From Anoxybacter fermentans (lineage in GTDB: Bacteria; Bacillota; Halanaerobiia; DY22613): a stretch of 64,000 nucleotides of DNA. The translations under genes and the position numbers were made by a program. The notes under the pieces were generated by a model. The model was given only the letters and a program-made list of their open reading frames with translations. It had not been told where the DNA came from and ran no database searches. Positions 10,602-44,978 of this stretch are shown here, one piece after another (position 1 is the first letter of the stretch; the number at the start of each line of letters is the position of its first letter). The DNA lies in NCBI RefSeq assembly GCF_003991135.1, contig NZ_CP016379.1, positions 744,001-808,000 of the forward strand, written 5' to 3'.

Positions 10602-11642
10602 ATGAGGTGCGGTCCTGAGTGCTATAGATATCGTTCAGACGGAGATAAATCATGGTGTATTAGGGGGCCACGTTTTGATATCCTGAACGGTAGCTGTTTA
10701 TGGCCCGTAACTCCAGAAGTAGAGTGTTTGTATGGACAGAGTCGAGAGATATTTCAGCCAGGAGATATTGTCCAGGAGATTATAAGAGAAAGTGGCCGTC
10801 TGATATTTGGTGATCCTATTAAGTTGATAGAGCAAAACGATAATAGATGGAGAGCCCAAAACACCAAAACTGGCAAAGAAGTAGAGGTAGCAATTGATAA
10901 TTTGTATCTGTTAAAGGCTGTAAAGGAAGGAAAAACAAAAGAGACTGTAGCCGAAGCAAAGGACCGTAGTTCTGACTCTTCTCTAAAACTTAAAGTAGGG
11001 GATAAGGTTGTTAGAACAGTGAACGGCATAAATTTGGGGATAGTCTGTAAGATCGTTAAGGAGATACGTGATTCTAATTATGATTATGAGATCTATAAAG
11101 AGGGATGGCCTCAACCAATACCGGTCAGAGCAGAAGAGTTGACCTTAGTGCAGGAGCAAGAGACTGAAACAATAGAAGCAAAACCAGAAACTAATTGTGG
11201 TCCTGATTGCAAATGGTGGAGGCGGGATATCTCGCTTCCACCCAGATTTATGGATGGTGCTTGTGTCAAGAATTATCAGACTGGTGAAGCTGTCAGTGCT
11301 AAGAAGAGTTTTTGTGATTATAAAGAATCGCCTGACGACATCAAACTTGGAGATCGAATCCGGGGAATAATTGCAACAGGTACATATCTCAATATTTATG
11401 ATGGCTACGTTGTAGATATTGAAAAAAATAAATGGATCTGTAAAGTAGTTAGGATAAACCCAATAAGCAATAAATATGGACCAATGGCCATTAAACTGAA
11501 ATTCGAAAGGAATGAAGTATTTAAGGTTGAAGATTTTGGAGATCTAGCTAAGAAGGTATTTTTAGAAAAGAAAAAGACTAATCAGGAGCCGGTAGATCCA
11601 GGAAAACCGGAGATGGTCAGCTTATTTGAGTTATTTGGTTAG
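10602..11642 (+). CDS. Cys-motif protein, partner of the DndC-like gene (346 aa)
   Basis: No known family. It has two copies of a Cys module: MRCGPECYRYR with later Cys at the N-terminus, and NCGPDCKWWRRD near residue 199, each with about four Cys, suggesting two metal-binding modules. SH3-like beta segments lie between (LKVGDKVVRTVNGINLGIVC; IKLGDRIRGIIATGTYLNIY). The last residues, GKPEMVSLFELFG, closely match the end of the next gene's product (LPEMISLFDIAG), so the two proteins probably bind the same partner. The genes are 12 bp apart. Confidence 0.6.
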   Translation: MRCGPECYRYRSDGDKSWCIRGPRFDILNGSCLWPVTPEVECLYGQSREIFQPGDIVQEIIRESGRLIFGDPIKLIEQNDNRWRAQNTKTGKEVEVAIDNLYLLKAVKEGKTKETVAEAKDRSSDSSLKLKVGDKVVRTVNGINLGIVCKIVKEIRDSNYDYEIYKEGWPQPIPVRAEELTLVQEQETETIEAKPETNCGPDCKWWRRDISLPPRFMDGACVKNYQTGEAVSAKKSFCDYKESPDDIKLGDRIRGIIATGTYLNIYDGYVVDIEKNKWICKVVRINPISNKYGPMAIKLKFERNEVFKVEDFGDLAKKVFLEKKKTNQEPVDPGKPEMVSLFELFG

Positions 11643-11654
11643 GAGTGAAATCTA

Positions 11655-13061
11655 ATGAAGTTTGATGAAAAAGTCGCCTCAGTAATGGCAGAGATAAAGC
11701 GACTGTATAAAGCTGATGCCCGCCCCTGGGTAATAGGTTATAGTGGCGGTAAAGATTCTACCACAGTGGTCCAGTTAGTGTTCAATGCAATTAATGAGTT
11801 ACCAGAAAATGAACGCCATAAACAAATATATGTTATCACTTCAGATACTTTGGTTGAGATACCGATAATAAAAGACTATTTAGAAAGCAATCTGAAAAAA
11901 ATACAGAAGGCAGCTGAGGATTTGAAATTGCCCATAGTTGTACATAAGGTTAAGCCAGAGATAGATAAGACATTTTGGGTCAATCTTATTGGAAAAGGAT
12001 ATCCTTCGCCCAGGCAAAAGTTCCGTTGGTGTACTGATAAACTTAAGATAGATCCGACAAATCAGTTCATTCGTAGTAAGGTAGAAGAGAATGGGGAAGT
12101 AATTATGGTATTAGGTGTTCGATTAAACGAAAGTGCCTCTCGTGATCAGGTTCTTAACTCACACAGAGTAGAAGGTAAAAAACTCCGGACACATTCATCT
12201 TTGGTTAACGCCTACATATATGCGCCTATTGAACAATTTTCTACTGACGATGTCTGGGAGTATCTTTTAAAATATGAGTCACCCTGGGGGAGTGATAATA
12301 CTGAACTTCTGGCTTTATATCAGGATTCAGCGGGTGAGTGTCCACTTGTAATTGACCGGGATACTCCATCATGTGGGAATAGTCGCTTTGGTTGCTGGGT
12401 ATGTACAGTAGTAAAAGAGGACAAGGCTCTTAAGGGGTTTATAGAGAACGGGGAACGATGGTTAATTCCCCTGCTTAAGTTTCGTAATTGGATAGTTGAG
12501 ATAAGAGATGATCCTAAGAGAAGGATGAATAGGTCAAGAAATGGTAGAGTCTTTTATCTGCCAGACGGAAGACGAAGTCCAGGACCGTTTACGCTGGAGG
12601 CGCGAAAAGAGATTTTAAGAGAATTGCTTAGAACCCAAAAACAAATAGAGTCTTTAACCGGCAAGCAGTACCAACTTATTTTAGAAAAAGAATTGATAAA
12701 GATTAGAGAGATTTGGCTCAAAGACGGAGATTGGGAAGATTCGCTTCCGAAAATTTATCGAGAAGAGACCGGAAAACTTCTTATCAAAGATTTAATCGAT
12801 CAACCTATATTCACGGACCAGGAGATGAACGTATTATCTGATCTGTGCAAAGAAGAAGATGTGCCCTTTGATTTGGTGATGAAACTAGTGCTACTTGAAA
12901 CCGAATATTATGGCTATAAATACAGAGTTGGTATTTTAGATGAAATAAATAAGATATTACATGAAGATTGGTTACATATTCAGGAACAAACCTCAGAAGA
13001 ATCAGAGCCTTTAAAGAAACAACTTCCGGAGATGATTAGCCTGTTTGACATAGCCGGTTAG
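11655..13061 (+). CDS. dndC: DndC-like ATP pyrophosphatase / PAPS-reductase-family protein (468 aa)
   Basis: The PP-loop SGGKDSTT is near residue 30. Residues about 112-130 (GYPSPRQKFRWCTDKLK) are typical of DndC, the sulfur-transfer enzyme of DNA phosphorothioation. Four cysteines between about 230 and 255 (ECPL, SCGN, FGCWVC) match its iron-sulfur site. Length and the RNGRVFYLPDGRRSPGPFT segment also fit. No dndA, B, D or E is in the window, so it works alone, borrows host partners, or does another thiolation. The C-terminal EMISLFDIAG tail resembles a sliding-clamp-binding peptide. Confidence 0.8.
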   Translation: MKFDEKVASVMAEIKRLYKADARPWVIGYSGGKDSTTVVQLVFNAINELPENERHKQIYVITSDTLVEIPIIKDYLESNLKKIQKAAEDLKLPIVVHKVKPEIDKTFWVNLIGKGYPSPRQKFRWCTDKLKIDPTNQFIRSKVEENGEVIMVLGVRLNESASRDQVLNSHRVEGKKLRTHSSLVNAYIYAPIEQFSTDDVWEYLLKYESPWGSDNTELLALYQDSAGECPLVIDRDTPSCGNSRFGCWVCTVVKEDKALKGFIENGERWLIPLLKFRNWIVEIRDDPKRRMNRSRNGRVFYLPDGRRSPGPFTLEARKEILRELLRTQKQIESLTGKQYQLILEKELIKIREIWLKDGDWEDSLPKIYREETGKLLIKDLIDQPIFTDQEMNVLSDLCKEEDVPFDLVMKLVLLETEYYGYKYRVGILDEINKILHEDWLHIQEQTSEESEPLKKQLPEMISLFDIAG

Positions 13062-30271: not shown

Positions 30272-33200
30272 GTGAACGATGCAGCAGTACTCGAAATGAT
30301 AATTCGTGCTCGTCAGCAATTGCATGGCATTGATGCTACCATCCAGATGATTAAAAAAATGAAAAAGCAGTTTAGAGAACTTGCAAGAACCGTCACTACA
30401 TATGCTAAACAGATCAAAGAAGCAGTAGAGAAAGTTAAAGAATCATTTATCCGGCTAAATAATGCCATGCATATGTTACGAAATACTGCTCTCAAAGCAT
30501 TCACAGCGATCGTTGCCTTTACAGGCATTCCGTCAAAAATGTATATGGATTTTCAACAGGGAATGTCAAATGTAAACACATTATTGAATGTATCACGGGA
30601 AGAATTGGATAGATACAGTCAGGGTGTAATTGAAGTATCAAATAAAATTGGTGAAAGTGCAAAGGAATTAACAGGTGCTCTCTATGACATCATTTCTGCC
30701 GGTGTTGAAGCCAGCCATTCCATAGAAGTTCTTGAGCTTTCCGGCAAGGCTGCCAAGGCCGGGATGACTCAAACAAAGGTGGCTGTTAATGCCGGTATTG
30801 CTGCAATTAATGCTTATAACCTGGAGATCAGTGAACTTAGTCGGGTATATGATCTTCAGTTCAGCACAGTAAAAAAAGGTGTAATAACTTTTGCACAGCT
30901 GGCCAGTGCGCAAGGCCAGCTGATACCATCTGCCCGGAAAGTCAATGCGACTTTAGAGGAAATGTATGGATCGCTGGCCTACTTGACCAAACAAGGTCTT
31001 TCAGCAGAAGAAGCATCCACATCCCTTGCCCGGGCATTTGACGCCTTAGTTGAGCAGAAGTCTTCTTTTGCGCAATTAGGAATTAACGTCTTTGATGAGA
31101 TGACCGGTCAATTCCGCGGGTTGGAAACTATTGTTACAGAATTGGCCGATAAACTACAGGGTTTAACAGAAGAAGAACAGGCTAACCTTCTTGAAAATCT
31201 TGGTCTTGATATTCGTGCCCAGAGAGCTATTATCCCAATGATCAAGAATATAGAACAGTATAAAGAAACAGTAGCAGATGTAGCAAATTCAGCAGGGGCA
31301 ATGGAAGAAGCTTACAAAAGAGCAATTGATAATATTGCCTTCCATTGGAACCGGGCTAAACAGAATGTAATCAATGCTGTAATGAATATAGGAATGACTT
31401 TTGAAGATGAAATTAGGGATATGTTGGACCAGATCACAGCCTGGGCGCGTGCTATTGCAGGTTTTGTGAAAGATAATAAAGAGGTAATTAAAAGTGTCAT
31501 AGAATCTGCCATTAAATTAGCTGGAACTGTAGCCCTATTTACTATGGTTGCAGCTGCAATAATGACGTTAATGACTCCAATTGGCATGGTTACTGCTGGT
31601 ATTGGAATATTAGCTGCAGCCTGGTATTTGAACATTGGAGGAATAAGGGAAAAGACTGAAAATGCAGTAAACTTTATCACCCAGAAGTGGAACGAACTGA
31701 AGCTATGGTGGCAGGATACCACGTGGACAGAAAAGGCTAAGGATATTGGAAAATTGGTGCTGAATTTTGGCGGATTTATCTGGAGTGAATCGATTGATTT
31801 GCTCAAAAAGTTTGATGCCTGGATAGGAAAACAATTAGATATGGATGATAACGGCCGTATAGACCTGGGAGATTTAATACTGCTGGTTAAGATAATTTGG
31901 GAATCAGTCAATGACATATGGAATGCATTTTCTGATTGGATGAAAGATCAGGGGTTAGTAGGCGGAGACCTATGGGAAGCAATAAAAAATATATGGAATT
32001 CCAACATTGGTAATGTGCTGAAAATAGGATTCCTTGTGAAATGGTCTGCAATCAAAATACCAAGTTTAATCTCATATCTTATAACTCATGTTGAAGGTTT
32101 ATCATTACTTGGATCAGGCGTAGGATTGGCTTTGAGTCTCGGCCAGATTGCATTAGTTGGGGCGATTATCTGGAGTATACTCCCTGAAGACTGGAAAGAG
32201 GAAATCAGGAAAAATGTTATTAACCCAGTAGTAGAATTTGTCAAAAAAGGTTGGTCAGAACTTGCAAACTTTGAATTAGATCCACATCAGTTATTTGTTG
32301 ACTTTGTAGAGAAAGTTAAAGAATGGGTAAACAATACTTTGACTCTGGAAAATTTCAAAAAATGGGGGAAGTTAATAGGAGAAGCCATATTGGAAGGTAT
32401 TAAATCAATGATTAACCCCGCTAACTGGTTTAGTAATAACTATACAAAGCCAGCCGTAATGCAAAGTAGTTATTGGTCGAACTATGCTAATCCCGAAAAC
32501 TGGAACATTCAATCAAATGCAGATGGCGGATTAATTATCGGACCTGGTACCGGTACTAGTGATTCTATTTTATCCTGGGTATCAAACGGTGAATATATTG
32601 TCAATGCCAGAGCAACCCGGAAATGGTTACCCCTTTTGGAAGCAATCAATGAAGACAGACTTCCGAAGTTTGCATCTGGTGGCTATATAAATCTTTCAAC
32701 CGGAGCAGGAACGGGCGGGGGAGCCAGTTTTGCAGAGGCAAATATAGCAATATTAGAAATATTAGGCCTTACCGGTAATACAGCAGCAGAAAGCACTTTG
32801 AGGTATCTGGCTCAAATATCCCATGATACAGAAAACTTCCAGGTAATTGCTCAAATTATAGCTGGATTATACAAAACTGTTGAGGATTATAGAAAAGAAT
32901 TAGAGAACATTAGAGAAGAGACTGAAAAACTTATCAATGAGTATAATAATGGTGATAATGGAGGAAATAATGGCCCACCAGAAGCAGAATCAAATTATTG
33001 GAAAGAATTTGTCAATGTGATGAGTAATATATTAGAATCAACCCTTGATGATTTTGCCAGCATATTTGAAGATACCACCAGAACTTTTATAATAGGCATA
33101 ACTAATACAATACATAGTTTAAATGCTCATGAAGAAGGCGTATGGGGCGCTGTTTCTGAAATTACTAATTTATTCAAGGGTGGTAACTTCGAAGAAAAAT

Positions 33201-34801
33201 TGGCTGGTTTGTCCTTAGAAACTACAAGCGCTATGGTATCTTTCTTTGAGACTATTCGTGATACTATCATCAGTTATGCTGAACAAAATGCAGAAAAGCA
33301 ATACGAAGAGTTTAAAGAAGCAGTAGACCAATTCCAAGAAGTAGTAGAACAACTTACTGATGCAATCCGGCAAGGTGGCAGTTTGCAAAAAGCACGGGAA
33401 TTGTATCAAAATACAAAGCTTGAGGCGGAACAAGTGGCGCGTGAATACGCGCAGTATCAGGAAGCCCAACGACAGGCACAGGGAGCAAAACAGGGCGCAG
33501 GTTGGGGTGCTTTGTTAGGAGGTATTGCTGGCTTTCTGATAGGTGGCCCAATTGGAGCTACTATTGGGGCTGCGATTGGTGGTGCTGCTGGTGCTGGAGT
33601 GGGCTATCTGGCTAACGAAGGTATAAATTATGAAGAGGAATTGCAAAAATTAACAGAAGAATTAGAAAAGGCTAAGGAAACTCTAGCTAAAACAATTGAG
33701 GAATCTTTTGGATTAGGGTTGCAAGAAGTTTTAAGCGGGTTAAATCATAGTATTATTACCGCTATTAATAATGGTGAAGATCTTGCAATAGCAGTTGGGA
33801 CAGCCCTTTATGGGCATATTAAGGAATCATTAATGCAAGTTTTTACATGGGCAACTAATGAATTAATAGCCCAACAATTAGAGCCGATACTGACTAAAGT
33901 AAGAGATACAATAATGAATGCAATTATTCAAGGCAGTGATATTAATTTTGACACACTCATTGATATTGAACAGTTGATTCAAGTTGGCCGGCAGGCTGAA
34001 AAACAGGCTCAAATGATGGAGGAATTAATTAATAAGTATAAAGAAGCCCTGAGAGAAGCTGGTATAGATGAGGAAATTATCGATCAATTATTCCCTATGA
34101 CAGAGGCAGAACAAAAAGCCGAAGAATTAGCACAAACTGTATCTGGTGCTTTGAGAAATGCTTTAGCAGAAGCATTAGAAGCCGGGAATATTAGAGATTT
34201 CAGTTCTGCAATGGGGGAAGCAATATACACTCATGTTAAGGATGCGCTTATTCAAGCCTTTATGCAATCTGAAGTTTATCAGGAGATGTTTAAAAAGTGG
34301 TTTGATGTATCAGATATTACTTTTACCGGGAACTTAGCAGAAGATTTTGAGACTATTCAAGACATACTGGACGATCTGGAACAGCAATTGAAAGCAGCTG
34401 GCCTGGGATTCAATTATACCACGATTCCTATGATAGGCAACGGGGTAACTTTGGACCAGGGATTGTATGGTACGGAGTCATATTTCGCACCAAGCACACT
34501 GGAAGCAGGTAGGGATATGGCAAACACATTTGCAACAGCAATTGAGCAGTTTACTATAGCAACTGATAGTTTGGTCCGTAGTATTGATGAACTGACTGAC
34601 TCCATAAATTATTCTAAATCTAAAATACAACCATTTATCTGGTATAGAAGACCTGAACCGGACCTGGATTATAGCAACAAACAAATACATAACCACTATC
34701 ATTTTGAACCTAAAATCAATAACATGTTTGATGGTGATAAATCTACACTATTTGAAGAGTTTGTAGCGTGGAAAAGAAAGCTTGAAATGAACCAGGCGTG
34801 A
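30272..34801 (+). CDS. Tape measure protein (1,509 aa)
   Basis: GTG start behind AGGAGGTG. Long helical N-terminus (residues 20-60), then a TP901-type conserved part (FQQGMSNVNTLLNVSREELD near 90; GESAKELTGALYDIISAGVE near 127). Hydrophobic helices lie near 410-455 and 600-640. A Gly-rich zipper (GALLGGIAGFLIGGPIGATI) lies near 1077. Residues about 524-540 (LDMDDNGRIDLGDLILLV) match one dockerin/EF-hand calcium loop, unexpected here. It sets the tail length and helps DNA pass the membrane. Confidence 0.9.
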   Translation: MNDAAVLEMIIRARQQLHGIDATIQMIKKMKKQFRELARTVTTYAKQIKEAVEKVKESFIRLNNAMHMLRNTALKAFTAIVAFTGIPSKMYMDFQQGMSNVNTLLNVSREELDRYSQGVIEVSNKIGESAKELTGALYDIISAGVEASHSIEVLELSGKAAKAGMTQTKVAVNAGIAAINAYNLEISELSRVYDLQFSTVKKGVITFAQLASAQGQLIPSARKVNATLEEMYGSLAYLTKQGLSAEEASTSLARAFDALVEQKSSFAQLGINVFDEMTGQFRGLETIVTELADKLQGLTEEEQANLLENLGLDIRAQRAIIPMIKNIEQYKETVADVANSAGAMEEAYKRAIDNIAFHWNRAKQNVINAVMNIGMTFEDEIRDMLDQITAWARAIAGFVKDNKEVIKSVIESAIKLAGTVALFTMVAAAIMTLMTPIGMVTAGIGILAAAWYLNIGGIREKTENAVNFITQKWNELKLWWQDTTWTEKAKDIGKLVLNFGGFIWSESIDLLKKFDAWIGKQLDMDDNGRIDLGDLILLVKIIWESVNDIWNAFSDWMKDQGLVGGDLWEAIKNIWNSNIGNVLKIGFLVKWSAIKIPSLISYLITHVEGLSLLGSGVGLALSLGQIALVGAIIWSILPEDWKEEIRKNVINPVVEFVKKGWSELANFELDPHQLFVDFVEKVKEWVNNTLTLENFKKWGKLIGEAILEGIKSMINPANWFSNNYTKPAVMQSSYWSNYANPENWNIQSNADGGLIIGPGTGTSDSILSWVSNGEYIVNARATRKWLPLLEAINEDRLPKFASGGYINLSTGAGTGGGASFAEANIAILEILGLTGNTAAESTLRYLAQISHDTENFQVIAQIIAGLYKTVEDYRKELENIREETEKLINEYNNGDNGGNNGPPEAESNYWKEFVNVMSNILESTLDDFASIFEDTTRTFIIGITNTIHSLNAHEEGVWGAVSEITNLFKGGNFEEKLAGLSLETTSAMVSFFETIRDTIISYAEQNAEKQYEEFKEAVDQFQEVVEQLTDAIRQGGSLQKARELYQNTKLEAEQVAREYAQYQEAQRQAQGAKQGAGWGALLGGIAGFLIGGPIGATIGAAIGGAAGAGVGYLANEGINYEEELQKLTEELEKAKETLAKTIEESFGLGLQEVLSGLNHSIITAINNGEDLAIAVGTALYGHIKESLMQVFTWATNELIAQQLEPILTKVRDTIMNAIIQGSDINFDTLIDIEQLIQVGRQAEKQAQMMEELINKYKEALREAGIDEEIIDQLFPMTEAEQKAEELAQTVSGALRNALAEALEAGNIRDFSSAMGEAIYTHVKDALIQAFMQSEVYQEMFKKWFDVSDITFTGNLAEDFETIQDILDDLEQQLKAAGLGFNYTTIPMIGNGVTLDQGLYGTESYFAPSTLEAGRDMANTFATAIEQFTIATDSLVRSIDELTDSINYSKSKIQPFIWYRRPEPDLDYSNKQIHNHYHFEPKINNMFDGDKSTLFEEFVAWKRKLEMNQA

Positions 34802-35040: not shown

Positions 35041-35061
35041 AATAAATTGGAGGTACTGGCG

Positions 35062-38000
35062 ATGGGGCAAAGATTAACTATTATTGAAGATTTTCAACAG
35101 GGTACCCTCAATAATGTCATTAACTCAGCAGGTACGCTTAAACTTGTGCAATTAACAAATGCATTCCCGCACAGTCAGTCTTTTGAAGACTGTGCGGGTG
35201 AGCATATTGGAGATATTAATAATTCAAATGCTGTTAAAACAGATATTGGTGGAGGGTGGCAAGTAGCTACTCATTATAATACAACTACCATTAGAGTAGA
35301 AACCGACGGTGGCTATCATGGAACTAAACGATTAGCTTTCATCCATGATGGCTCTTCTGGCTGGAAGGGTGCAGTTTCAGGCGCCCTTAGCGTTATAGCA
35401 GGTAAATGGTACAGGGTATCTGTCAGAGCAAGAGCTAATATGAAATCCAGTCAGGTGTTTAGTGAAGGATATGCCTTTTATGTGTATGGTGTATATTCTG
35501 TAAAATTCAGTTGGAATGTCAAACCTACAGACAACCCGGGAAAATGGGTGACTGGTGTTGCGATTTTTCAAGCACCAGATAATTATACAGGATATATGTA
35601 TCTTTATGGTTTAACTGATGGAGAAAATGGATTGATTTTAGAATATGATGCTGTTATGTGGGAAGAATTTGATGCTGATCCCACTAATCAACCTTTTGGA
35701 TTCACTGTTAATACCGGTTACCCAATTGAAGGAGGAGAGCGGATTTCTCCAGTTGTAGACATTTCAGCAGTCGGCATAGCGCAAAAATCTAGATGTAAAC
35801 AAACTGCTGCCATTCCCACAGACACTAATATCGAATTATATAGTTCATTGGATGATGGGAAAACCTGGCAAGGTGTTGTACCGGGTTGGAATCCATTAGC
35901 ATCAAGAATAGGCCTTAAATTTGATGGTGTTGACGATTATGTCTATATTCCAAGCCAATCTTATCTAGCTTTGACAGGTGACGAACCTGAGACCGTTGAA
36001 ATGAGGGTAAAGCCAAATGACAAAGCAAGCAACTATTTCCTTTTTCAGGCAAACACATGGAGCAGGCGTATGGCGTGGAGTGGCTATAAGTTTTATGTGC
36101 TTGTTACTGACATTGATGGCACGTTACATCAATTAGTGACCCCAAATAATTATGCACCAAACAATGTATACCATATAACTTATACATTTGACGAAAATTA
36201 TGTATTATCTGTGTATGTAAATGGTGAACTGGCTGTTCAAAAAACAATAGGTAAACCCTTAAAACCTGCTGACAGTTATTGGTGGTTTGGCAGCGCTAGA
36301 GCAGGTAGTGATACTTGTTATTTCGATGGTACGATTTATGAAGCAAGATTTTGGAGAGGTATCGCGCGCACTCAAGCAGAAATTCAAGCGGATATGGATA
36401 AACACCTTACCGGCGATGAAACAGGTTTAATAGGATATTGGACATTCAATACCGGTGAGGGTAGTACAGTTAAAGATCGTGTGTACAGAGGAAATTATTA
36501 TCGCGCAGACGGAACTATTTATGGCGCGCAGTGGGATGTTGAAAAAATATCCGGGTATGTAGTAGGTCAACAATTATTACTTAAACAGAAACTATTAACT
36601 GATGATCCTTCTAATACACCCCAATTGCAATCATTAGAAACGATTATTACGCCAGCAAATGCATTAGTTGTTACAGATTCATTTAAAAGTAATTGTAAAG
36701 ACTTTAGTTTAAGAAATGAGCATAACATTGACGTTTATAATGTTACCAAAGCTGCCTATATCACTCAATATATTGATCTAACCAGCCTGGATATTAGATG
36801 CGAAGAAACTGGCATATTTGGGCATTCTTCAGCAAATACATTAACATTTGATATTGAACTTTCACCAACTGATGATATTTCTACAATTATACAAGAGGGA
36901 GATGTTATCAGGGTAGAAGAGACTTTTAATAATGAACAAATTACAATTTTTGTAGGCTATGCAGATAACCCACCTGTAGAATATAACAATCTCAAACATA
37001 GATTTCGAATAGAAGCATATGATTACATTAAACGAGGCATACAATATATATTCCAGGACCATGAAGTAAAAACCAATTGGTATTTATGTAATAATGACGC
37101 ACCTGATCAATCTTTGGCACACTATTTAGGCACTTTAATGGGCTTTAGCTATAATGATATGTTATTCGAAGACATTACTGATGCAAACGGTAATTATATT
37201 ACAATCCCATATGCCCACTTAGAGCGTGGTAAAAATGTTTTAGCAGAATTTTCTACTTTGGTACAAAGCGTTTGTGGAAAGTTGTTTGTAAATCATGATG
37301 GAGTATTAGTTTTAACTTCGCCATTCAATGAAGAAGATTTTTACGATATTAATGTAACCTTCGACGATAACATTTTAGGAAAAATAGAAGTAAAATCAAT
37401 TCCAGCTACAAATGATGAAGTACGTGTAATATATGATACATTTCATATAGCTGAGAGGCAAGTTTGCTGGATGCTATATGATAAAACCAGTTATGACGAA
37501 ATAAATGATAAAGCTAATATGTTGTTACCCGCTGGAGAAACAAGCGCATGGATAAAGATCCAGCTAGTAACGCCAATATGTCTTAACCTTGAAGGAGCTG
37601 CACCGGAAATAGTGGTAGAAGACGCTAATGGTAATGATATGAGTGCTTATTTCCAATATGATCTTGAATTGGACATGACCGGTGGTAAAGTTCGATTTTA
37701 TAACTTACACAGTACCGAAGATCTATACATTCAAAAATTCAAAATATATGGCCAACCGTTAGAAAAATTATCCGGCAATGAATATATTTACTCTGAAGCA
37801 ACTACTCCCAACAATCCATTAGAAATTAAAAACAAATTCATTCAAACTGATAGTTTAGCTGAAGCAGTAGCGAAATATACTTACCACATGACTTGCAAAG
37901 ACAGAAAACTATATAAGTTTAAAACGTGCTATGCACCTTATTTAGCTTTAACTAATAAAGTTAAAATTCAAAAACGAGACATTAATACAGAAGCAGTAGT

Positions 38001-40422
38001 AACAAGATACACTCATGCAGTCCAAGATAACTATTTAGTTACAAAGGTTGAATTGTTGGAGTTTATACCGTATGAGGGTTTTCCTGGCAATTTGACCGCT
38101 ATACAAACAGCCCCTAACATTAAAGACGATAAAACTGAATTTACTTTCAGTAAGATGGAAAATGACGGTATATTTCCAGAGGGATTGCCGGTACCACAAC
38201 CAACGGGTGTAGTCGGAATTGGTTCTTTTAAGCATATTTTTATTGAATGGAATCCGGTAGATAGAAGGGATCTATTGGGATATAACATTTATGTTGATGA
38301 TGGTAATAGCTATAAACAATATTTTACGAAGGCAACGTTCTGCAGCATAGAGGCGGAAAGTGGTGTTACATATAATGTTCAAGTAACAGCAGTTACTCTG
38401 GCCGGTGAAAGTACCAAAACTACAGCAATTCAGGTTACAACAGCCAGTGGGGTAGATTGGTCAGAAGTCGTAAACGCTGCAGTTAATACGAATGATATTG
38501 TAGATAGGGCTATTTCTACGGTTAAAATTGCTCTTGATGCAATTACCAGCGACGAGATAGCAAATAGTGTAGTACAAACTGCTCATTTAATTAACCAAGC
38601 GGTTACTGCCACTAAGATTGCTTTATTAGCTGTGCAAACTTCTCACATAGAAAATCTGGCTGTAGATACAGCAAAAATCAATGATTTAGCTGTTACTACT
38701 GGTAAATTAGTTGATTTAGCAGTACAATCAGCCAAAATTAACGATCTTGCAGTTATTTCGACAAAGATAGCAGACCTGGCTGTGGCGACTGCAAAAATAG
38801 CAGATTTAGCTGTTACTAATGCTAAAATTGCTTCTCTGGCCGTTGCTGAAACAAACATTCAGGATGGCAGCATTACTAACGCAAAAATCGCAAATGCAGC
38901 TGTGGATAATGCCAAAATTGCTAATGCAGCTGTGGACAGCGCAAAAATTGCTAATGCGTCGATTACCAGCGCACATATTCAAAACCTGGCTGTGCAGGAT
39001 GCACACATTCAGGATTTGAACGGTAGTAAGATACATGCCAAATCAATCACAGCAGAGCAGATACGAGCAGGTGAATTTTTACCAATAGCAAAACCAGAAG
39101 GTGCTCATCTCTGGCATTTTGATCGCTCGTTAATATCTACCGATGGTATTAGGCCGGAAGGTACACCAATTGCTACATTGCGACTAAACGAAGGAAAATT
39201 TGGAGGAGCGGTAGCAGTAGAAGAGGGAACGGAAAATTTATTGGCGACTGTTGGTGGAGGAGCTGCTCAAGATTGGAGTAAATGGTCGCATTGGAATAGC
39301 AGTTACTGGGGGAAAACTGAACAGTATGATGATGAAAAATGGGGTAAGGTTTTCAAAGGCACAAAGGATGGAGCAAGTTCATCTAGTACTTATATTTACG
39401 ACTATTATCCTTATTCTTATGCAGTAGGAGATGTATTAACATTTTCTTGCTATATGAGGGTTAATAAAGATATAACCAAAACTATAGATTTTTATGTCAA
39501 TTCAAGTGCTGGAGGTCAACATCATGTAGCGACTCCGGATTCTAAAGTAATAACTTTCAAAGCTGGAGAGTGGCAATATATTACGTGGACTTCTGGGCCT
39601 GTAACTGAGACCGTAAATGGAACAGGTGGATTTGGTCTTGCCATGGGTTCTGGCTGGGAAGGATATGTAGTGGAAATAGCTTATCCCCAGCTCGAGAAAA
39701 AACCTTTTGCTACTTCTTTTGTAAATGGCACAAGAGCAAGCGGGGACTTGGCTTATTCAGCAGATATAATTGATGTAAACAAAACTACGTGGCATTTTGT
39801 ATGGATACCAGAACAGTCTTTAGATAGTATGGTAGACCAAGCGAGTTATCCTAAAATATTATCAGTAGGAGAATATTATAAAAACAACTCATTTGTATTA
39901 TGGTTTTACGACAAATACATTGCTTTGTATATTAAAGGTTCGACTGCCTATCACTGGTCTGCTGCTCCTTCTTGGATTCCTCCTGCTGGTTGGTATCAAC
40001 CGTATAACAAATACACCTTTGATGTACAAATAGAAAACGGTAATCATTTTAAGGTATATTTAGATGGGGAATTAATTATTGAAACTACTATAACTGACAG
40101 CTTTACAGGTGTGGCCGGCAACAAATGGTGGGTAGGTGATAATACTACCAGCAGTGCTGCTAATGCTCTATTTGATGAATTAATGGTATCGAACGAAATA
40201 CACACAGCTGAAGAAATCAAAGCATGGTGCGAATCGCAAGCACCATTTTTTGATAACGAATCAGTAGTTAGTGGTGGTAGTACTATAATTGATGCTAATG
40301 GTTTTAGAGCTTATGATGGTAATGGATTATTAATGATAGAACTTAATTCGCAAAAAGGTACAGGATTTTTTAAAGGGTCGATAGAGGCTGAGGAATTTAT
40401 TCTACCGATAAGGTCGGTGTAG
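35062..40422 (+). CDS. Large tail / receptor-binding protein with two LamG-like domains (1,787 aa)
   Basis: ATG 35062 follows GGAGG. Layout: a beta-sandwich (about 30-215), a LamG-like domain (285-475; LKFDGVDDYVYIPSQS, GLIGYWTFNTGEGS), a tail-hub-type part (540-720), an FnIII domain (1046-1126), a repeat tract (1135-1335) of ten- to eleven-residue units such as AVDNAKIANAAVDSAKIANA, a second carbohydrate-binding/LamG-like part (1380-1715), and a short C-terminal cap (GFRAYDGNGLLMIELNS). LamG domains bind glycans, so it is a likely adhesin and tail fibre. The repeats probably form a fibrous shaft. Confidence 0.8.
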   Translation: MGQRLTIIEDFQQGTLNNVINSAGTLKLVQLTNAFPHSQSFEDCAGEHIGDINNSNAVKTDIGGGWQVATHYNTTTIRVETDGGYHGTKRLAFIHDGSSGWKGAVSGALSVIAGKWYRVSVRARANMKSSQVFSEGYAFYVYGVYSVKFSWNVKPTDNPGKWVTGVAIFQAPDNYTGYMYLYGLTDGENGLILEYDAVMWEEFDADPTNQPFGFTVNTGYPIEGGERISPVVDISAVGIAQKSRCKQTAAIPTDTNIELYSSLDDGKTWQGVVPGWNPLASRIGLKFDGVDDYVYIPSQSYLALTGDEPETVEMRVKPNDKASNYFLFQANTWSRRMAWSGYKFYVLVTDIDGTLHQLVTPNNYAPNNVYHITYTFDENYVLSVYVNGELAVQKTIGKPLKPADSYWWFGSARAGSDTCYFDGTIYEARFWRGIARTQAEIQADMDKHLTGDETGLIGYWTFNTGEGSTVKDRVYRGNYYRADGTIYGAQWDVEKISGYVVGQQLLLKQKLLTDDPSNTPQLQSLETIITPANALVVTDSFKSNCKDFSLRNEHNIDVYNVTKAAYITQYIDLTSLDIRCEETGIFGHSSANTLTFDIELSPTDDISTIIQEGDVIRVEETFNNEQITIFVGYADNPPVEYNNLKHRFRIEAYDYIKRGIQYIFQDHEVKTNWYLCNNDAPDQSLAHYLGTLMGFSYNDMLFEDITDANGNYITIPYAHLERGKNVLAEFSTLVQSVCGKLFVNHDGVLVLTSPFNEEDFYDINVTFDDNILGKIEVKSIPATNDEVRVIYDTFHIAERQVCWMLYDKTSYDEINDKANMLLPAGETSAWIKIQLVTPICLNLEGAAPEIVVEDANGNDMSAYFQYDLELDMTGGKVRFYNLHSTEDLYIQKFKIYGQPLEKLSGNEYIYSEATTPNNPLEIKNKFIQTDSLAEAVAKYTYHMTCKDRKLYKFKTCYAPYLALTNKVKIQKRDINTEAVVTRYTHAVQDNYLVTKVELLEFIPYEGFPGNLTAIQTAPNIKDDKTEFTFSKMENDGIFPEGLPVPQPTGVVGIGSFKHIFIEWNPVDRRDLLGYNIYVDDGNSYKQYFTKATFCSIEAESGVTYNVQVTAVTLAGESTKTTAIQVTTASGVDWSEVVNAAVNTNDIVDRAISTVKIALDAITSDEIANSVVQTAHLINQAVTATKIALLAVQTSHIENLAVDTAKINDLAVTTGKLVDLAVQSAKINDLAVISTKIADLAVATAKIADLAVTNAKIASLAVAETNIQDGSITNAKIANAAVDNAKIANAAVDSAKIANASITSAHIQNLAVQDAHIQDLNGSKIHAKSITAEQIRAGEFLPIAKPEGAHLWHFDRSLISTDGIRPEGTPIATLRLNEGKFGGAVAVEEGTENLLATVGGGAAQDWSKWSHWNSSYWGKTEQYDDEKWGKVFKGTKDGASSSSTYIYDYYPYSYAVGDVLTFSCYMRVNKDITKTIDFYVNSSAGGQHHVATPDSKVITFKAGEWQYITWTSGPVTETVNGTGGFGLAMGSGWEGYVVEIAYPQLEKKPFATSFVNGTRASGDLAYSADIIDVNKTTWHFVWIPEQSLDSMVDQASYPKILSVGEYYKNNSFVLWFYDKYIALYIKGSTAYHWSAAPSWIPPAGWYQPYNKYTFDVQIENGNHFKVYLDGELIIETTITDSFTGVAGNKWWVGDNTTSSAANALFDELMVSNEIHTAEEIKAWCESQAPFFDNESVVSGGSTIIDANGFRAYDGNGLLMIELNSQKGTGFFKGSIEAEEFILPIRSV
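35166..35198 (+). repeat. Perfect 11-bp inverted repeat inside the tail gene
   Basis: CCCGCACAGTC (35166-35176) pairs with GACTGTGCGGG (35188-35198) around an 11-base loop, about 105 bases into the coding sequence. No T-run follows. It could slow translation or be a protein site; it may also be chance. Confidence 0.5.
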
Positions 40423-40426
40423 TACT

Positions 40427-41584
40427 ATGAATAGTCAGCAAGGTAAAATCTGGATAGACGGTAGTTATTTATGTATATGGAGGTATGGCGAAGCTAATTA
40501 TTATAAAATTCTGGGGGAGATTGCGGGAAATGACCCGAATACTCCCCCGGGTACTCTTTATTTAGAAGTCGGGCGAATTGTTTATCACGATACAAGTTAC
40601 AATAAACGCATTATTAGAGTTAAGCAGAATACAAGCTATCCTACAAGTAGGCAGGATGGAAGCCTGGCTATAGACCCTGTTAATTATTTATGGTTTGCTT
40701 GGCAGGGATATAAGTATGAAGTAACACATGAGGATGCTAGTCATAGTGATATGAACCTTCATGATGATATAGCTGCTAGAAGTTCTAGTTACCATTCTGA
40801 TATTAGTTATTCAGACCATGATGACCATGAGGATTCTGCTCATAATGACTGGAATGATTACACTGATGAGTACATCAATTGGAGCGATTATACAGATGAC
40901 CCTCCTCACCAAGATTGGTCAGATTGGAATGACTATAATAACTGGAGTGATTACATTGATGATTACGGTAATTGGGCAGATAATGTTTTACATCAAGATT
41001 GGAACGATTACACTGATGAATATATAAATTATTCTGACCACAATGATACAGTTCATAGTGATTGGAGTGATTATAACGATGTAACTCATAGTGATTGGAG
41101 TAACCATAATGACCTTTATTGGAGTGATTTTGGTTTTGATGACCATACTGACTGGTCAGACTATAATAATACAGCTCATACCGATTGGTCTGACTATAAT
41201 GATACTCATAGTGATTGGAGTAACCACTCTGACGGATATGCTTCGCCAGTATGGAGTGACCATAATGATGTTCCACATAGTGATTCACATACTGACCAAT
41301 GGTATTCGCCAGCATGGAGTGACCATAATGATGTAACAGGAGTAAATTGGTCCGACCATACTGATGTACATGAAGATGATTGGTCTAATCATACTGATAG
41401 TTATGCATATCCACCTTATAATGACCACTATGATACTGCTCATACAGATTATAGTGACCATAGTGATAGAGACCATAGTAACCATAGTGATTATTCAGAC
41501 TCTCCACATTATGATTATACAGACCATTTAAATGCTTCCCATGCAGACAATCCTATACCGGCTCCTTATACAGATAATAGCTAA
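40427..41584 (+). CDS. Repetitive tail protein with aromatic/His-X-Asp triads (385 aa)
   Basis: Residues 1-100 form an ordinary beta-type tail domain (GKIWIDGSYLCIWRYGEANY; DPVNYLWFAWQGYKYEV). From about 105 to the end almost every third residue is Asp or Asn, preceded by Ser/Thr/Asn and an aromatic or His: WSDYNDVTHSDWSNHND is typical. I count about 64 such triads. There are few Lys, Arg or Leu. The composition is highly acidic and could bind cations or sugars. The next two genes encode a radical SAM enzyme and a DUF483-like protein, suggesting modification of these triads. No known family for the repeat part. Confidence 0.7.
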   Translation: MNSQQGKIWIDGSYLCIWRYGEANYYKILGEIAGNDPNTPPGTLYLEVGRIVYHDTSYNKRIIRVKQNTSYPTSRQDGSLAIDPVNYLWFAWQGYKYEVTHEDASHSDMNLHDDIAARSSSYHSDISYSDHDDHEDSAHNDWNDYTDEYINWSDYTDDPPHQDWSDWNDYNNWSDYIDDYGNWADNVLHQDWNDYTDEYINYSDHNDTVHSDWSDYNDVTHSDWSNHNDLYWSDFGFDDHTDWSDYNNTAHTDWSDYNDTHSDWSNHSDGYASPVWSDHNDVPHSDSHTDQWYSPAWSDHNDVTGVNWSDHTDVHEDDWSNHTDSYAYPPYNDHYDTAHTDYSDHSDRDHSNHSDYSDSPHYDYTDHLNASHADNPIPAPYTDNS

Positions 41585-41634: not shown

Positions 41635-43020
41635 ATGAGTTTAAGTATTAAAGTAACAAATACTGTATGTCAAGCTGGATGTGAGTATTGTTATGAGATT
41701 CCTTTAAGAGAAAATGGAAGAGGAGTTAGGCCTTTTGATTTGGATGCTATTATGAATGAGATGGAATATGAATGGAAAAAAACTAGTTTAGGTCAATCCG
41801 GTCAAATTTACCTTCACGGTGGAGAAGCATTGACTGCAGGACATGAAGTAGTAGAAAAACTGCTGAGGAAAGCTTATGAATTGAGCGGAAGTTCAAGTAT
41901 TCAGACATATGGATATTTAATTGATGATAGATATATTAAGATATTTAAGAAGTATAAAACTTCTGTTGGAATTAGTATTGACGGTCCATATCCATTAAAC
42001 GAGTTGAGAAAAGTTCCAGGCCAAAATACAGAAGAAATTACAAAAAAAGTACATGAAAACATTAAAAAGTTGAAGGATAATGGAATTAGTGTAGGAATGA
42101 TAGTCGTTCTTCATAAAAAGAATGCAGTAGGAGATAGATTAAATAGATTAAAAGAATGGATAATAGAACTTCGAGATAAATATGGAGTTGATGGCGGTAG
42201 GCTTAATATGATGGTAGGAATTCATCCACAAGCAAAGAAATATGAATTAACTCCAGAAGAAGCTAAAATAGCGTGGACTGAATTGGCCAAGTTAGTTCTT
42301 GTTGAAGAAGATGAATTACATTGGCAGCCTTTCCATGATATTGTATCTAATTTACTTGGACTAGAACAAGGCACTTGTACATTTAATGCATGTCAGTATT
42401 ACCATGCTCATACTGAACCGGTAATATTCTCTGATGGTAAAACAGGTACTTGCTTAAAAACTTGTGGAAAAGACGGGCATGTTTATCCTAGGTATCTTGA
42501 TTATAAATGGTATGACGATTCTCAAAAAAGGTTTGGACTTATTAGATATGATATTTTACCCAAAATTCCACAAGAAGATGGTGGATGTAAAGGCTGTAAA
42601 TACTGGAGAAATTGTTTGGGAGGTTGCCCATCAGCAGGAATTGATAATGACTGGAGAAATAAAACCAGATTTTGTGAAGCATTGAAAGGTTTATTTGAGT
42701 TAGTAGAAAAACATCTTAAACGTCTTATGCCTAATATTGTCCTCTCTACAGATAAGGAGGTTACATTTCTTTCTAAATATGGTATAACTGGAATGCAACC
42801 TAAAGCTTTTGTATATATGGACTATGACACAGCAAAACGTCCCAGCTCCTGGAGAAGGGAAGCTAAAGAATCTAAAAAAGAGAATCATATGCAGATTAGA
42901 GTTCCAATAAAAGGTTTAAACGGAGATGGATGTAAGCAGTTTACCTCACCCATAGAACATTTGGACGGACATATTAGACATTTGGATAGTAATTATCATG
43001 ATTTAAAGGGGGAGTTATGA
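41635..43020 (+). CDS. Radical SAM/SPASM peptide-modifying enzyme (461 aa)
   Basis: The cluster motif is C12-x3-C16-x2-C19 (VCQAGCEYCYE), with the SAM-binding LHGGEAL near 64 and GISIDGP near 116. The C-terminal part has SPASM/Twitch-type cysteines (GTCTFNAC, GTCLKTCG, GGCKGCKYWRNCLGGCPSAG near 316), as in peptide maturases such as anSME and RiPP enzymes. A 95-residue tail follows. GGGAGG precedes the ATG. It stands in the tail operon between the triad-repeat protein and the DUF483-like gene, whose start overlaps its stop. The likely substrate is the repeat protein. Confidence 0.85.
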   Translation: MSLSIKVTNTVCQAGCEYCYEIPLRENGRGVRPFDLDAIMNEMEYEWKKTSLGQSGQIYLHGGEALTAGHEVVEKLLRKAYELSGSSSIQTYGYLIDDRYIKIFKKYKTSVGISIDGPYPLNELRKVPGQNTEEITKKVHENIKKLKDNGISVGMIVVLHKKNAVGDRLNRLKEWIIELRDKYGVDGGRLNMMVGIHPQAKKYELTPEEAKIAWTELAKLVLVEEDELHWQPFHDIVSNLLGLEQGTCTFNACQYYHAHTEPVIFSDGKTGTCLKTCGKDGHVYPRYLDYKWYDDSQKRFGLIRYDILPKIPQEDGGCKGCKYWRNCLGGCPSAGIDNDWRNKTRFCEALKGLFELVEKHLKRLMPNIVLSTDKEVTFLSKYGITGMQPKAFVYMDYDTAKRPSSWRREAKESKKENHMQIRVPIKGLNGDGCKQFTSPIEHLDGHIRHLDSNYHDLKGEL

Positions 43021-43874
43021 TGATTAAAATGGATGCTAAGAAAGATTTTGTGGTAGGGTTGGATGTTCCACCTACTGCGGAAATAATTTGGAATGACCCA
43101 GATGCTGAAGAAGAGTGGGGTAGTATTGTTGAACGAGCAAAAACTTTGCATTATAGATTAGAGTATGAAATGGTAAAGCATAAAAAGAGAAAGTGTGCTA
43201 CACTTCATATAAGTCCACGTAATTATGATAAGGATATAGAAAGGATTTTATCTGATGGTTTAGTATGGTTACCTATTCAAAGAACTAAGTCTTATACCGG
43301 ATTTAGTCATAAACATTTTCCGGTAGATGAACTTGATATGAATTCTAATGTTTATGGAGTTTTAGCTAGAAATCTGGAAGATGCTGAAGATTTCCGAGCC
43401 CATAGTATGCAGAAAAAAGTAAATCATAAAGGAATAGGTAAATTGTTAGGCTTTCCAAAATGTTGTAGTGGATTTTTTGTAGAAGAATGGAGTAATGGAT
43501 TTTACGACCCTGTGTATCAATCCGCATTAAAATCAAAGAATGTAAAAGAAATTGGAGAAAGACATATAAAAATTAGACCTCATATAGCAACTCATCAAAT
43601 GATGAGATATGTAGGATTTAGGTTAACTTCTCATTTTCCTTGCAGTTTGGATTGTAAAGATAGTATAGAAATAGGGAAAGTATGGTATGATTTAGCTAAG
43701 AAAATTGACCCTCAAGGATTAAGAGCTTTGGAGAGGATTCTTACTTTACCTGGAAGATGGGAAGTTCTACATGGAGTAGCTGTAGTAGTTACTGAACCAT
43801 TTACGATTATAGCCAATAGTATTCCTACCAAAGAAAAATGGGTAGTAGAGTGGGATGAAGTAGATACTTATTAG
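43017..43874 (+). CDS. DUF483-like protein (285 aa)
   Basis: The motif KLLGFPKCCSGFFVEEW near residue 142 and LTSHFPCSLDCKDSIEIG near 203 resemble DUF483 proteins with their GYPxCC pattern; four conserved Cys suggest metal or cluster binding. It is translationally coupled to the radical SAM gene (ATGA overlap), which suggests a joint complex, perhaps for substrate recognition or a second modification. I do not know a function for the family. The terminator at 43899 ends the unit. Confidence 0.6.
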   Translation: MMIKMDAKKDFVVGLDVPPTAEIIWNDPDAEEEWGSIVERAKTLHYRLEYEMVKHKKRKCATLHISPRNYDKDIERILSDGLVWLPIQRTKSYTGFSHKHFPVDELDMNSNVYGVLARNLEDAEDFRAHSMQKKVNHKGIGKLLGFPKCCSGFFVEEWSNGFYDPVYQSALKSKNVKEIGERHIKIRPHIATHQMMRYVGFRLTSHFPCSLDCKDSIEIGKVWYDLAKKIDPQGLRALERILTLPGRWEVLHGVAVVVTEPFTIIANSIPTKEKWVVEWDEVDTY

Positions 43875-43918: not shown

Positions 43919-43984
43919 TATATCTAAGAGATTTAGGTAGTGTCAAAAAATCTATGAGAAAAGGATTCAGAAAGGATGATCAAA

Positions 43985-44416
43985 ATGTCAATACAAGAGA
44001 TAATGGACAGTATCAAAAAAGTACTTGAAGCCCCATTGTTCAAAGGGGTTTTTTCTTTTGTCGGATTGGTTTTAACTAAACTCTTTGGAAAGCCTGACAC
44101 TGCTTTACAAGCATTCATTATGCTTCTGATTCTTGATTTAATAACAGGTTTTATTAAGGCATTTTTATCCGGAAGTGCAAGGTCTTTTATCTCCCACGAA
44201 AAAGGTCGGAAAAAATATTTAGGTTATGCTGTGGTACTTTCAGTTTGTCATCTTCTTGATATGGCAGCTGTCCCAGGTTTACGTAATGTGGCTCTATTCT
44301 GGGGAAGTGCTACAGAAACCTATAGTATCTTAGAAAATATGGAAGAGATGGGTGTGCCTATGCCTGAATTCATTAAACAACAATTAAACAATACCAAAAA
44401 AAAGTACAAGCTTTGA
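43985..44416 (+). CDS. Phage holin (phi29/TcdE-type, 143 aa)
   Basis: Three hydrophobic segments: VFSFVGLVLTKLFG, ALQAFIMLLILDLITGFIKA and YLGYAVVLSVCHLLDMAAV, plus the family ending ILENMEEMGVPMPEFIKQQL. This is the phage_holin_4 pattern. It opens the membrane at the end of the lytic cycle. ATG 43985 follows AAAGGATG. The amidase gene comes next. Confidence 0.85.
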   Translation: MSIQEIMDSIKKVLEAPLFKGVFSFVGLVLTKLFGKPDTALQAFIMLLILDLITGFIKAFLSGSARSFISHEKGRKKYLGYAVVLSVCHLLDMAAVPGLRNVALFWGSATETYSILENMEEMGVPMPEFIKQQLNNTKKKYKL

Positions 44417-44426
44417 GGTGATCGGA

Positions 44427-44978
44427 ATGAAAAGAATAATTTGTATTGATCCAGGCCATGGAGAACCGTGGCCTGGTGCTGTTTTCGGAGATATAAAAGA
44501 GAGTGAATTCTGTCTCGATGTAGGTAATTTTCTATCAAGAGAACTACAGAGACGGGGACATATTGTAGTACAAACAAGGTACACATCATCTGCGATCGTC
44601 CCCGGGAGGCTAACAGAAGACCTTACAAGGCGTGCTGAAATTGCTAACCAGATCGAAGCTGATATTTTCCTTTCACTGCATTTCAACTCTCACCCAAACC
44701 ATGAGGCAAACGGCGTAGAAACCTGGTATTTCAAGCACTCGACTAAAGGTAGATATTTGGCAGAATTGATTCAAAATCAACTTATTAAGAAATTTAAGAT
44801 GCGTAACCGCGGGATAAAAGGTTCCCGCGGTTTAATTGTTTTGAAAAAAACCCTGATGCCTGCTGTACTGATTGAACTGGGATTTATTACTAATCCGAGA
44901 GATAGAAATATTATGACTGCATCTGTTTATCCAGAAAGGGTTGCCTGTGCAATTGCTGATGGAGTAGAAATTTTTTAA
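44427..44978 (+). CDS. N-acetylmuramoyl-L-alanine amidase (endolysin)
   Basis: 183 aa Amidase_3 domain without cell-wall-binding part. Zinc ligands and catalytic residues are visible: IDPGHGE near the start, ESEFCLD, FLSLHFNSHPNHEANGVE near 80, and the catalytic Glu in AVLIELGFITNPRD. It cleaves peptidoglycan during lysis. GAGGTG precedes ATG 44427. It lies between two holin-type genes. Confidence 0.9.
   Translation: MKRIICIDPGHGEPWPGAVFGDIKESEFCLDVGNFLSRELQRRGHIVVQTRYTSSAIVPGRLTEDLTRRAEIANQIEADIFLSLHFNSHPNHEANGVETWYFKHSTKGRYLAELIQNQLIKKFKMRNRGIKGSRGLIVLKKTLMPAVLIELGFITNPRDRNIMTASVYPERVACAIADGVEIF

Follow-up and report, generated by a model that had tools for sequence, protein, structure and literature searches.

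We propose that a long aspartate-rich tract in a putative prophage tail protein of Anoxybacter fermentans is cross-linked into a polycyclophane by the radical SAM (rSAM) enzyme encoded by the adjacent gene. The genes lie in a 64,000-nucleotide stretch (contig NZ_CP016379.1, 744 001 to 808 000, hereafter the window; all window coordinates below are positions within it). We give this reading as a whole a probability of about 0.72. It is supported by the linkage of three genes across relatives, the family of the enzyme, a positional substrate rule in the tracts, the same motif in the tails of the rSAM enzymes, a natural gene fusion, gene order and ORFs that join the tract to large phage proteins. 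It is highly likely that the rSAM enzyme modifies the tract, quite likely that the tract protein is located in the virion tail and likely that the product is a cyclophane; what the modified protein does in the tail is suggested here only tentatively. rSAM enzymes that form cyclophanes are known from the biosynthesis of short peptide natural products. The first-pass annotation of this DNA had described the tract without the enzyme genes adjoining it, and these genes change the interpretation.

The tract is in frame with a plus-strand ORF between 40427 and 41584 (stop codon TAA at 41582–41584), which encodes the putative substrate (precursor) protein of 385 a.a.; homologues are found at the same position in two loci of our collection (L006 and L008; L numbers denote such loci) and in the Thermus phages Cumys and phiMa. 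The protein begins with an all-beta domain (residues 1–104; 40427–40738) containing three GS-x-W-[IV]-[DE]-G-like units, predicted by AlphaFold with pLDDT mostly 80–97, in which G6, W9 and G30 are invariant among 35 relatives. The tract itself occupies residues ~100–385, i.e. the C-terminal three quarters, and its aromatic-x-Asp/Asn part (40727–41539) is the proposed site of dozens of three-residue cross-links. It is followed by a conserved C-terminal end with the pattern H-[AST]-D-x-P (41540–41584; P376 is nearly invariant in the alignment of relatives), which is predicted to pack as a strand (pLDDT 70–79, strand at residues 377–379). The first-pass annotation had reported an Asp/His/Trp/Tyr-rich composition for 40730–41584, with Leu, Lys and Arg nearly absent, and this holds: the translation of 40727–41581 contains 22.8% Asp, 9.8% Asn, 1.4% Leu, 0.7% Arg and no Lys. 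The unit it had proposed, WSDYND, has just two exact copies; the repetition is real as a degenerate triplet, [His/Tyr/Trp]-any-[Asp/Asn], in which His dominates the first position. The pattern [HWYF]-x-[DN] occurs 68 times in the 287-residue tract; when the same residues were shuffled 10 000 times, the mean was 25.2 (sd 3.5) and the highest count 40. The tract ORF is the sole ORF of the window that scores in our motif-density test. In the AlphaFold model of the unmodified chain the tract has a pLDDT of ~42 and no predicted secondary structure, which fits a chain made rigid by modification; according to the same model, the C-terminal strand may bring the end of the tract back to the N-terminal domain, so that the tract would form a loop on it.

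Searches of Pfam, PHROG and NCBIfam returned no match for the tract protein itself. The best structural match of its N-terminal domain, the LlpA lectin (Z 4.8 over 89 residues), is too weak to name a fold, and the one clear BFVD match (A0A451ED92, an unnamed protein of 342 a.a., the same length as phiMa_29) gives no function. A 146-a.a. open frame lies opposite the tract on the minus strand (40875–41315), and is probably a by-product of the biased codons of the tract.

The DNA of the tract had been taken as a sign of growth by slippage, for which we find little support. Against permutations of synonymous codons that preserve the protein, the longest exact DNA repeat in the tract (23 bp) has p = 0.08, repeated 12-mers have p = 0.17 and repeated 15-mers p = 0.02; Tandem Repeats Finder reports just 2.4 imperfect copies of a 33-bp unit. 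As the repetition at the DNA level is this modest, the periodicity of the tract is mainly a property of the protein and not a fresh product of slippage. The expected variation in length is seen between distant relatives, which carry from 12 to 116 motifs, but close pairs differ by only one and three residues.

Directly after the tract gene, on the same strand, lies a gene (41635–43020) for a radical SAM/SPASM peptide maturase (PF04055, E = 8e-13), the proposed cyclophane-forming enzyme. Its CX3CX2C motif (C12, C16 and C19; 41668–41691), which binds the SAM 4Fe-4S cluster, is invariant in 53 out of 53 relatives, and the cysteines of the SPASM auxiliary clusters (C248, C253, C273, C318, C321, C327, C331 and C347; 42376–42675) are conserved in 52–53 of them. 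The seven-cysteine SPASM pattern is present (C253-X14-G268-X4-C273, C318-X2-C321-X5-C327-X3-C331 and C347, each in 52–53 of the 53), and the SPASM profile TIGR04085 scores 23.1 bits, just under its cut-off of 27. The best NCBIfam profiles are DynA (dynobactin), the sulfatase maturase, AmcB, TIGR04083 and YhhB. AmcB and YhhB, together with GrrM/OscB, FxsB and XyeB, are named in NCBIfam as cyclophane-forming, and the profiles of DynA, YhhB, AmcB and GrrM/OscB match all 53 diverse rSAM relatives; matches of the enzyme to PDB profiles include ChlB (9gm3). The window enzyme does not reach the curated cut-offs of DynA, YhhB, AmcB, GrrM, FxsB or XyeB (e.g. 93 versus 450 bits for DynA and 64 versus 445 for YhhB), and with scores so far below them it is not a member of any of these named families. 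The sulfatase maturase profile matches equally well. Formylglycine formation, or other Ser/Cys chemistry of sulfatase maturases, was considered and rejected: Ser is at position 2 in only 22% of the motifs, so it is not a required residue.

The rSAM ORF overlaps by 4 bp with the gene of a DUF483 protein (43017–43874, plus strand; PF04467, 29.4 bits against a cut-off of 25), the constant partner in this system. PF04467 matches 35 out of 46 of its relatives, and C149, C150, R197 and C213 are invariant among 44 relatives. AlphaFold predicts the protein with a pLDDT of 96. Assigning it by its fold did not succeed: a PDB sequence search returned nothing, the best Foldseek E-value is 0.14, and the VIA-align matches, to 2guk (Z 8.0, 103 residues) and NleE (Z 5.4, 101 residues), are both weak. 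A member of the same family as the window's host (L097) and Halothermothrix sp. B5_bin.9 (L122) share an identical DUF483 protein of 285 a.a., so the host probably belongs to the Halothermothrix family; neither the tract nor the system rSAM was detected in the stretches examined at these two loci.

The three genes are linked well beyond this prophage. We collected relatives by searches that were blind to the tract, using rSAM and DUF483 alignments against IMG/VR and the DUF483 alignment against GTDB genomes. Among 72 non-redundant rSAMs of the clade, a protein with the aromatic-x-Asp repeat is encoded within 4 kb in 66 cases, a DUF483 protein in 67 and both in 62; the tract gene is directly upstream on the same strand in 53 out of 72, and the DUF483 gene directly downstream in 56. 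Several exceptions come from contig ends (L014, L029 and L051), and in L087 the DUF483 gene is near the start of a short contig; two more are L009 (phiLo), with its tract genes beyond the 4-kb limit, and L109, with its fused enzymes, both described below; in L019 the DUF483 protein falls just below the threshold, and L020, L022 and L050 are exceptions without an explanation. When the density test was applied to ~2,640 control ORFs (at least 100 a.a.), five passed: two of Thermus phage phiLo, two beside truncated system rSAMs and one of L108; none passed at a distance from such systems. No other rSAM gene of the host genome has a neighbor with such a tract. The two phiLo proteins (L009; 13810–15243 and 15256–17034, minus strand; 478 and at least 593 a.a.) are giant HxD-repeat proteins annotated as hypothetical, and are encoded more than 4 kb away from the rSAM and DUF483 genes, on the other strand. 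The L108 protein (11608–12126; Elusimicrobia) looks secreted, carries HYD/HSD and NHGNHGNHSNHG repeats, and is encoded beside rSAMs distantly related to the clade; it perhaps represents a neighboring system.

The sources of the set span haloarchaea, cyanobacteria and DPANN archaea: it is found on contigs assigned to Halovenus, Halomicrococcus (a plasmid), Chloroflexota, Chengkuizengella, Micrarchaeota, Aminicenantes, Nealsonbacteria, Elusimicrobia, Desulfurococcales and Scytonematopsis. Its arrangement varies in places. In L109 (2371–5070) the rSAM and DUF483 proteins are fused into one protein of 900 a.a., and in L073 (5090–10691) the rSAM and DUF483 genes are each present twice, next to a repeat protein that has mainly His-x-Asn where others have His-x-Asp. 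Two repeat proteins, in L107 (4718–5662; Chloroflexota) and L110 (4917–5681; Scytonematopsis), lie behind a signal-peptide-like stretch and are apparently cellular rather than of phage origin; the one in L107 also has a C-terminal membrane-like segment, and the neighbors in L110 include chromosomal metabolic genes. Given these signal-like stretches and metabolic neighbors, the chemistry is probably not confined to phages.

The motifs follow a positional rule. We pooled 68 non-redundant tracts; as these had been selected by motif density, the absolute motif fractions given here are somewhat inflated, whereas the exclusion of Pro was not selected for and Glu was free to occur at other positions. 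The residue two after His is Asp in 1997 and Asn in 214 cases (2211 out of 2293), and Ser in only seven. Glu is found there eight times versus the 2211 Asp/Asn, although elsewhere in the tracts there are 260 Glu versus 1194 Asp/Asn (Fisher p ~1e-98). Position 2 accepts nearly any residue except Pro, which occurs in 10 out of 2267 motifs versus 526 out of 6495 residues elsewhere (p ~3e-56). Asp or Asn follows two residues on for 97% of His but for only 54–65% of Tyr, Trp and Phe, so not all aromatic residues are sites. Most phages have His at position 1, and Tyr and Trp are also frequent there in the window, L006, L014, L098 and others. In the close pair Cumys and phiMa, positions 1 and 3 of the triplets show conservative replacements (His by Tyr and Asn by Asp, respectively), while position 2 and the linkers change freely.

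Judged from the sequences, these rules are the substrate rules of the three-residue cyclophane (triceptide) enzymes. Such enzymes join the first and third residues (i, i+2) of a motif: Tyr-C3 to Asp-Cbeta by YxdB, Trp-C7 to Asn/Asp-Cbeta by OscB, and His-C2 to Cbeta by HaaB and YhhB (PMC11002830). In both the known systems (3-CyFE: YxdB, OscB/GrrM, HaaB, YhhB and XncB) and the window, an rSAM/SPASM enzyme is encoded beside a protein with aromatic-x-Asp/Asn motifs; such a motif protein accompanies the rSAM in 66 of the 72 loci. The known substrates, however, are short precursors of natural products, whereas here we see a phage protein of hundreds of residues with a His-dominated series of motifs and a near-constant DUF483 partner.

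Some other chemistry could instead be applied to the tract by the rSAM and DUF483 proteins, e.g. a C–N link from His to Asp-Cbeta, beta-hydroxylation, epimerization or rearrangement of the Asp backbone. His does dominate position 1, the second conserved enzyme, DUF483, could add a step, and the top NCBIfam profile is DynA (NF041298), which forms a His-N to Tyr-Cbeta bond over i, i+2 as well as a Trp-Asn C–C bond (PMC11002830). But DynA has another substrate and another context, quite apart from its cut-off; Tyr and Trp at position 1 with the same spacing fit coupling of the ring to Cbeta best, and a strained ring of three residues fits the fact that position 2 excludes Pro and position 3 excludes Glu. 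We therefore regard these other chemistries as rather unlikely. The His-Xaa-Ser system (HxsABCD) resembles the window in having three-residue His repeats beside rSAM enzymes, and was rejected as a parallel: its third residue is Ser, so rare at that position here, and HxsB matches only weakly, with 24.5 bits where the cut-off is 370.

The same rule bears on the idea, in line with the metal binding suggested by the first-pass annotation, that the tract is an unmodified metal-binding or acidic low-complexity strand grown by slippage. Asp, Asn and His are good ligands, the length of the tract varies widely among distant relatives, and the 15-mers do show some excess of exact DNA repeats. Yet Glu is barred where Asp is required while being present at other positions, Trp and Phe serve as first residues, close pairs keep the triplets while position 2 and the linkers vary, the DNA repetition barely exceeds the synonymous-codon null, and the linkage with rSAM and DUF483 is near-constant; we find no support for metal binding as the main role, and on these grounds consider this alternative improbable. 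Calcium binding of the RTX type was looked for as well, and the tract protein has no Gly-rich GGxGxDxxx nonapeptide (the tract has 1.4% Gly).

Returning to the proposed cyclophanes, the rSAM enzyme itself carries the motif: its C-terminal tail (42946–43017) has HxD-type motifs of its own (HLD, HLD and YHD). At least two [HWY]xD motifs are found in the last 70 residues of 57 out of 72 system rSAMs, versus one out of 18 other rSAMs and six out of 70 DUF483 proteins, and a typical motif string in these tails is HGDxPHGDxHGDHTD. This tail may act as a substrate built into the enzyme, or as a tether.

The genomic context of the tract gene is that of a phage tail. The prophage genes in the window follow the order terminase, portal, major head, minor tail protein, tape measure (30272–34801, plus strand; TIGR01760, 112 bits), tail-fibre/tail-tip protein (35047–40422, plus strand; PF13385, with two Laminin_G_3 lectin-like stretches and PHROG tail-fibre matches), tract gene, the two enzymes, and holin and N-acetylmuramoyl-L-alanine amidase for lysis (43976–44978, plus strand; PF05105 and PF01520). 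In a dozen or so loci a very large phage ORF ends with the tract (L024, L025, L049, L063–L068, L072, L085, L095, L102 and L105); in L095 a Laminin_G_3 domain and the tract are found in one gene, and in L065 the tract is fused to a Gly_rich_2 domain. The N-terminal parts of these fused proteins mostly lack named tail families. No sequence match identifies the product of 40427–41584 as a tail fibre; its position in the tail module and the fusions to large phage proteins in relatives point to the tail, in agreement with the first-pass assignment to a tail protein. The resemblance is to phage tail fibres with Laminin_G_3 or glycine-rich domains: a gene of this kind precedes the tract gene here. 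We know of no tail fibres that carry enzyme-made cyclophanes. The upstream tail-fibre ORF has repeats of its own (AV-x-T-A-K-I-x-D-L, 38643–38960), including a 30-bp tandem array at the DNA level (38877–38957).

This context also bears on the idea that the prophage carries a RiPP-like system for a bacteriocin or a signalling peptide, in which the tract would be set free as peptides. Such radical SAM maturases usually make secreted natural products, and signal-peptide-like or membrane-like segments are seen in L107 and L110. However, most precursors bear the conserved beta domain or form a section of a very large phage protein, the ends of the tract are conserved on both sides, and no protease or transporter was recognized by Pfam next to the window genes. 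Rather than a typical short RiPP precursor with a removable leader and export genes, the window has a 385-a.a. protein with both ends conserved, whose Pfam-recognized neighbors are tail and lysis genes. A released peptide thus seems quite improbable, and a tail protein bearing cyclophanes remains our preferred reading.

The 'rSAM module' of the Thermus phages Cumys and phiMa (Cumys_11–13 and phiMa_27–29) consists of these three genes in identical order (HxD repeat protein, rSAM and DUF483). The parts of the 2024 report on these phages available to us (PMC11437467) list an rSAM, a DUF483 protein and an unknown protein, mention the module in other prophages as well and suggest DNA modification; in those parts the repeat protein is left unexplained, and no repeat motif or cyclophane reading is given. 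If the rSAM–DUF483 module made a DNA modification, the repeat protein would be an accessory, and homologues near deazapurine DNA-modification genes in cyanobacteria, mentioned in the same parts of that report, speak for this. Against it, the rSAM belongs to the SPASM peptide maturases, the third protein repeats one peptide motif that is also carried by the rSAM tail, and the module sits in the tail region; furthermore, in the cyanobacterial locus L110 the neighbors with Pfam matches are not DNA-modification genes, and the repeats lie behind the signal-peptide-like stretch. We hold this alternative to be highly improbable. Searches of phage records with parts of precursors and of fused tail proteins returned only phiMa and Cumys, or nothing. 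Within the open-access literature searched we found no earlier description of phage cyclophanes or of tail modification by radical SAM enzymes.

Our proposed mechanism is as follows. The tract would be the substrate region of a phage-encoded protein-modification system, in which the neighboring radical SAM/SPASM enzyme acts many times on one chain and in each triplet couples the aromatic ring at position 1 (mostly His, but also Tyr and Trp) to Cbeta of the Asp or Asn two residues on; the outcome would be a succession of three-residue cyclophanes. For DUF483 we suggest the part of an obligate partner, which either carries out a second tailoring step or handles the substrate. Once modified, the protein might form a stiff rod or loop, resistant to proteases and heat and borne on the beta domain of the tail fibre or tip, and could serve in host attachment or in the stability of the fibre. 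We see a somewhat better than even chance for the broader generalization that structural proteins widespread among tailed viruses of bacteria and archaea are turned into polycyclophane fibres by a phage rSAM with an obligate DUF483 partner, the enzyme with its substrate-like tail probably modifying itself.

What sets these loci apart is that the same substrate rule is repeated dozens of times in one long protein, apparently in phage tails, across bacteria and archaea. If the proposal is true, viruses use an enzyme of their own to staple a protein covalently into a rod. This would be a novel type of structural post-translational modification in virions and would put the chemistry of ribosomal peptide natural products to use for virion material. 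DUF483 would also gain a function, the three-gene phage module that had no explanation in 2024 would be accounted for, and enzymes able to install many cross-links in one chain would become available. As the gene set recurs in both bacterial and archaeal viruses, it suggests that viruses build with a heavily cross-linked material that has drawn little notice.
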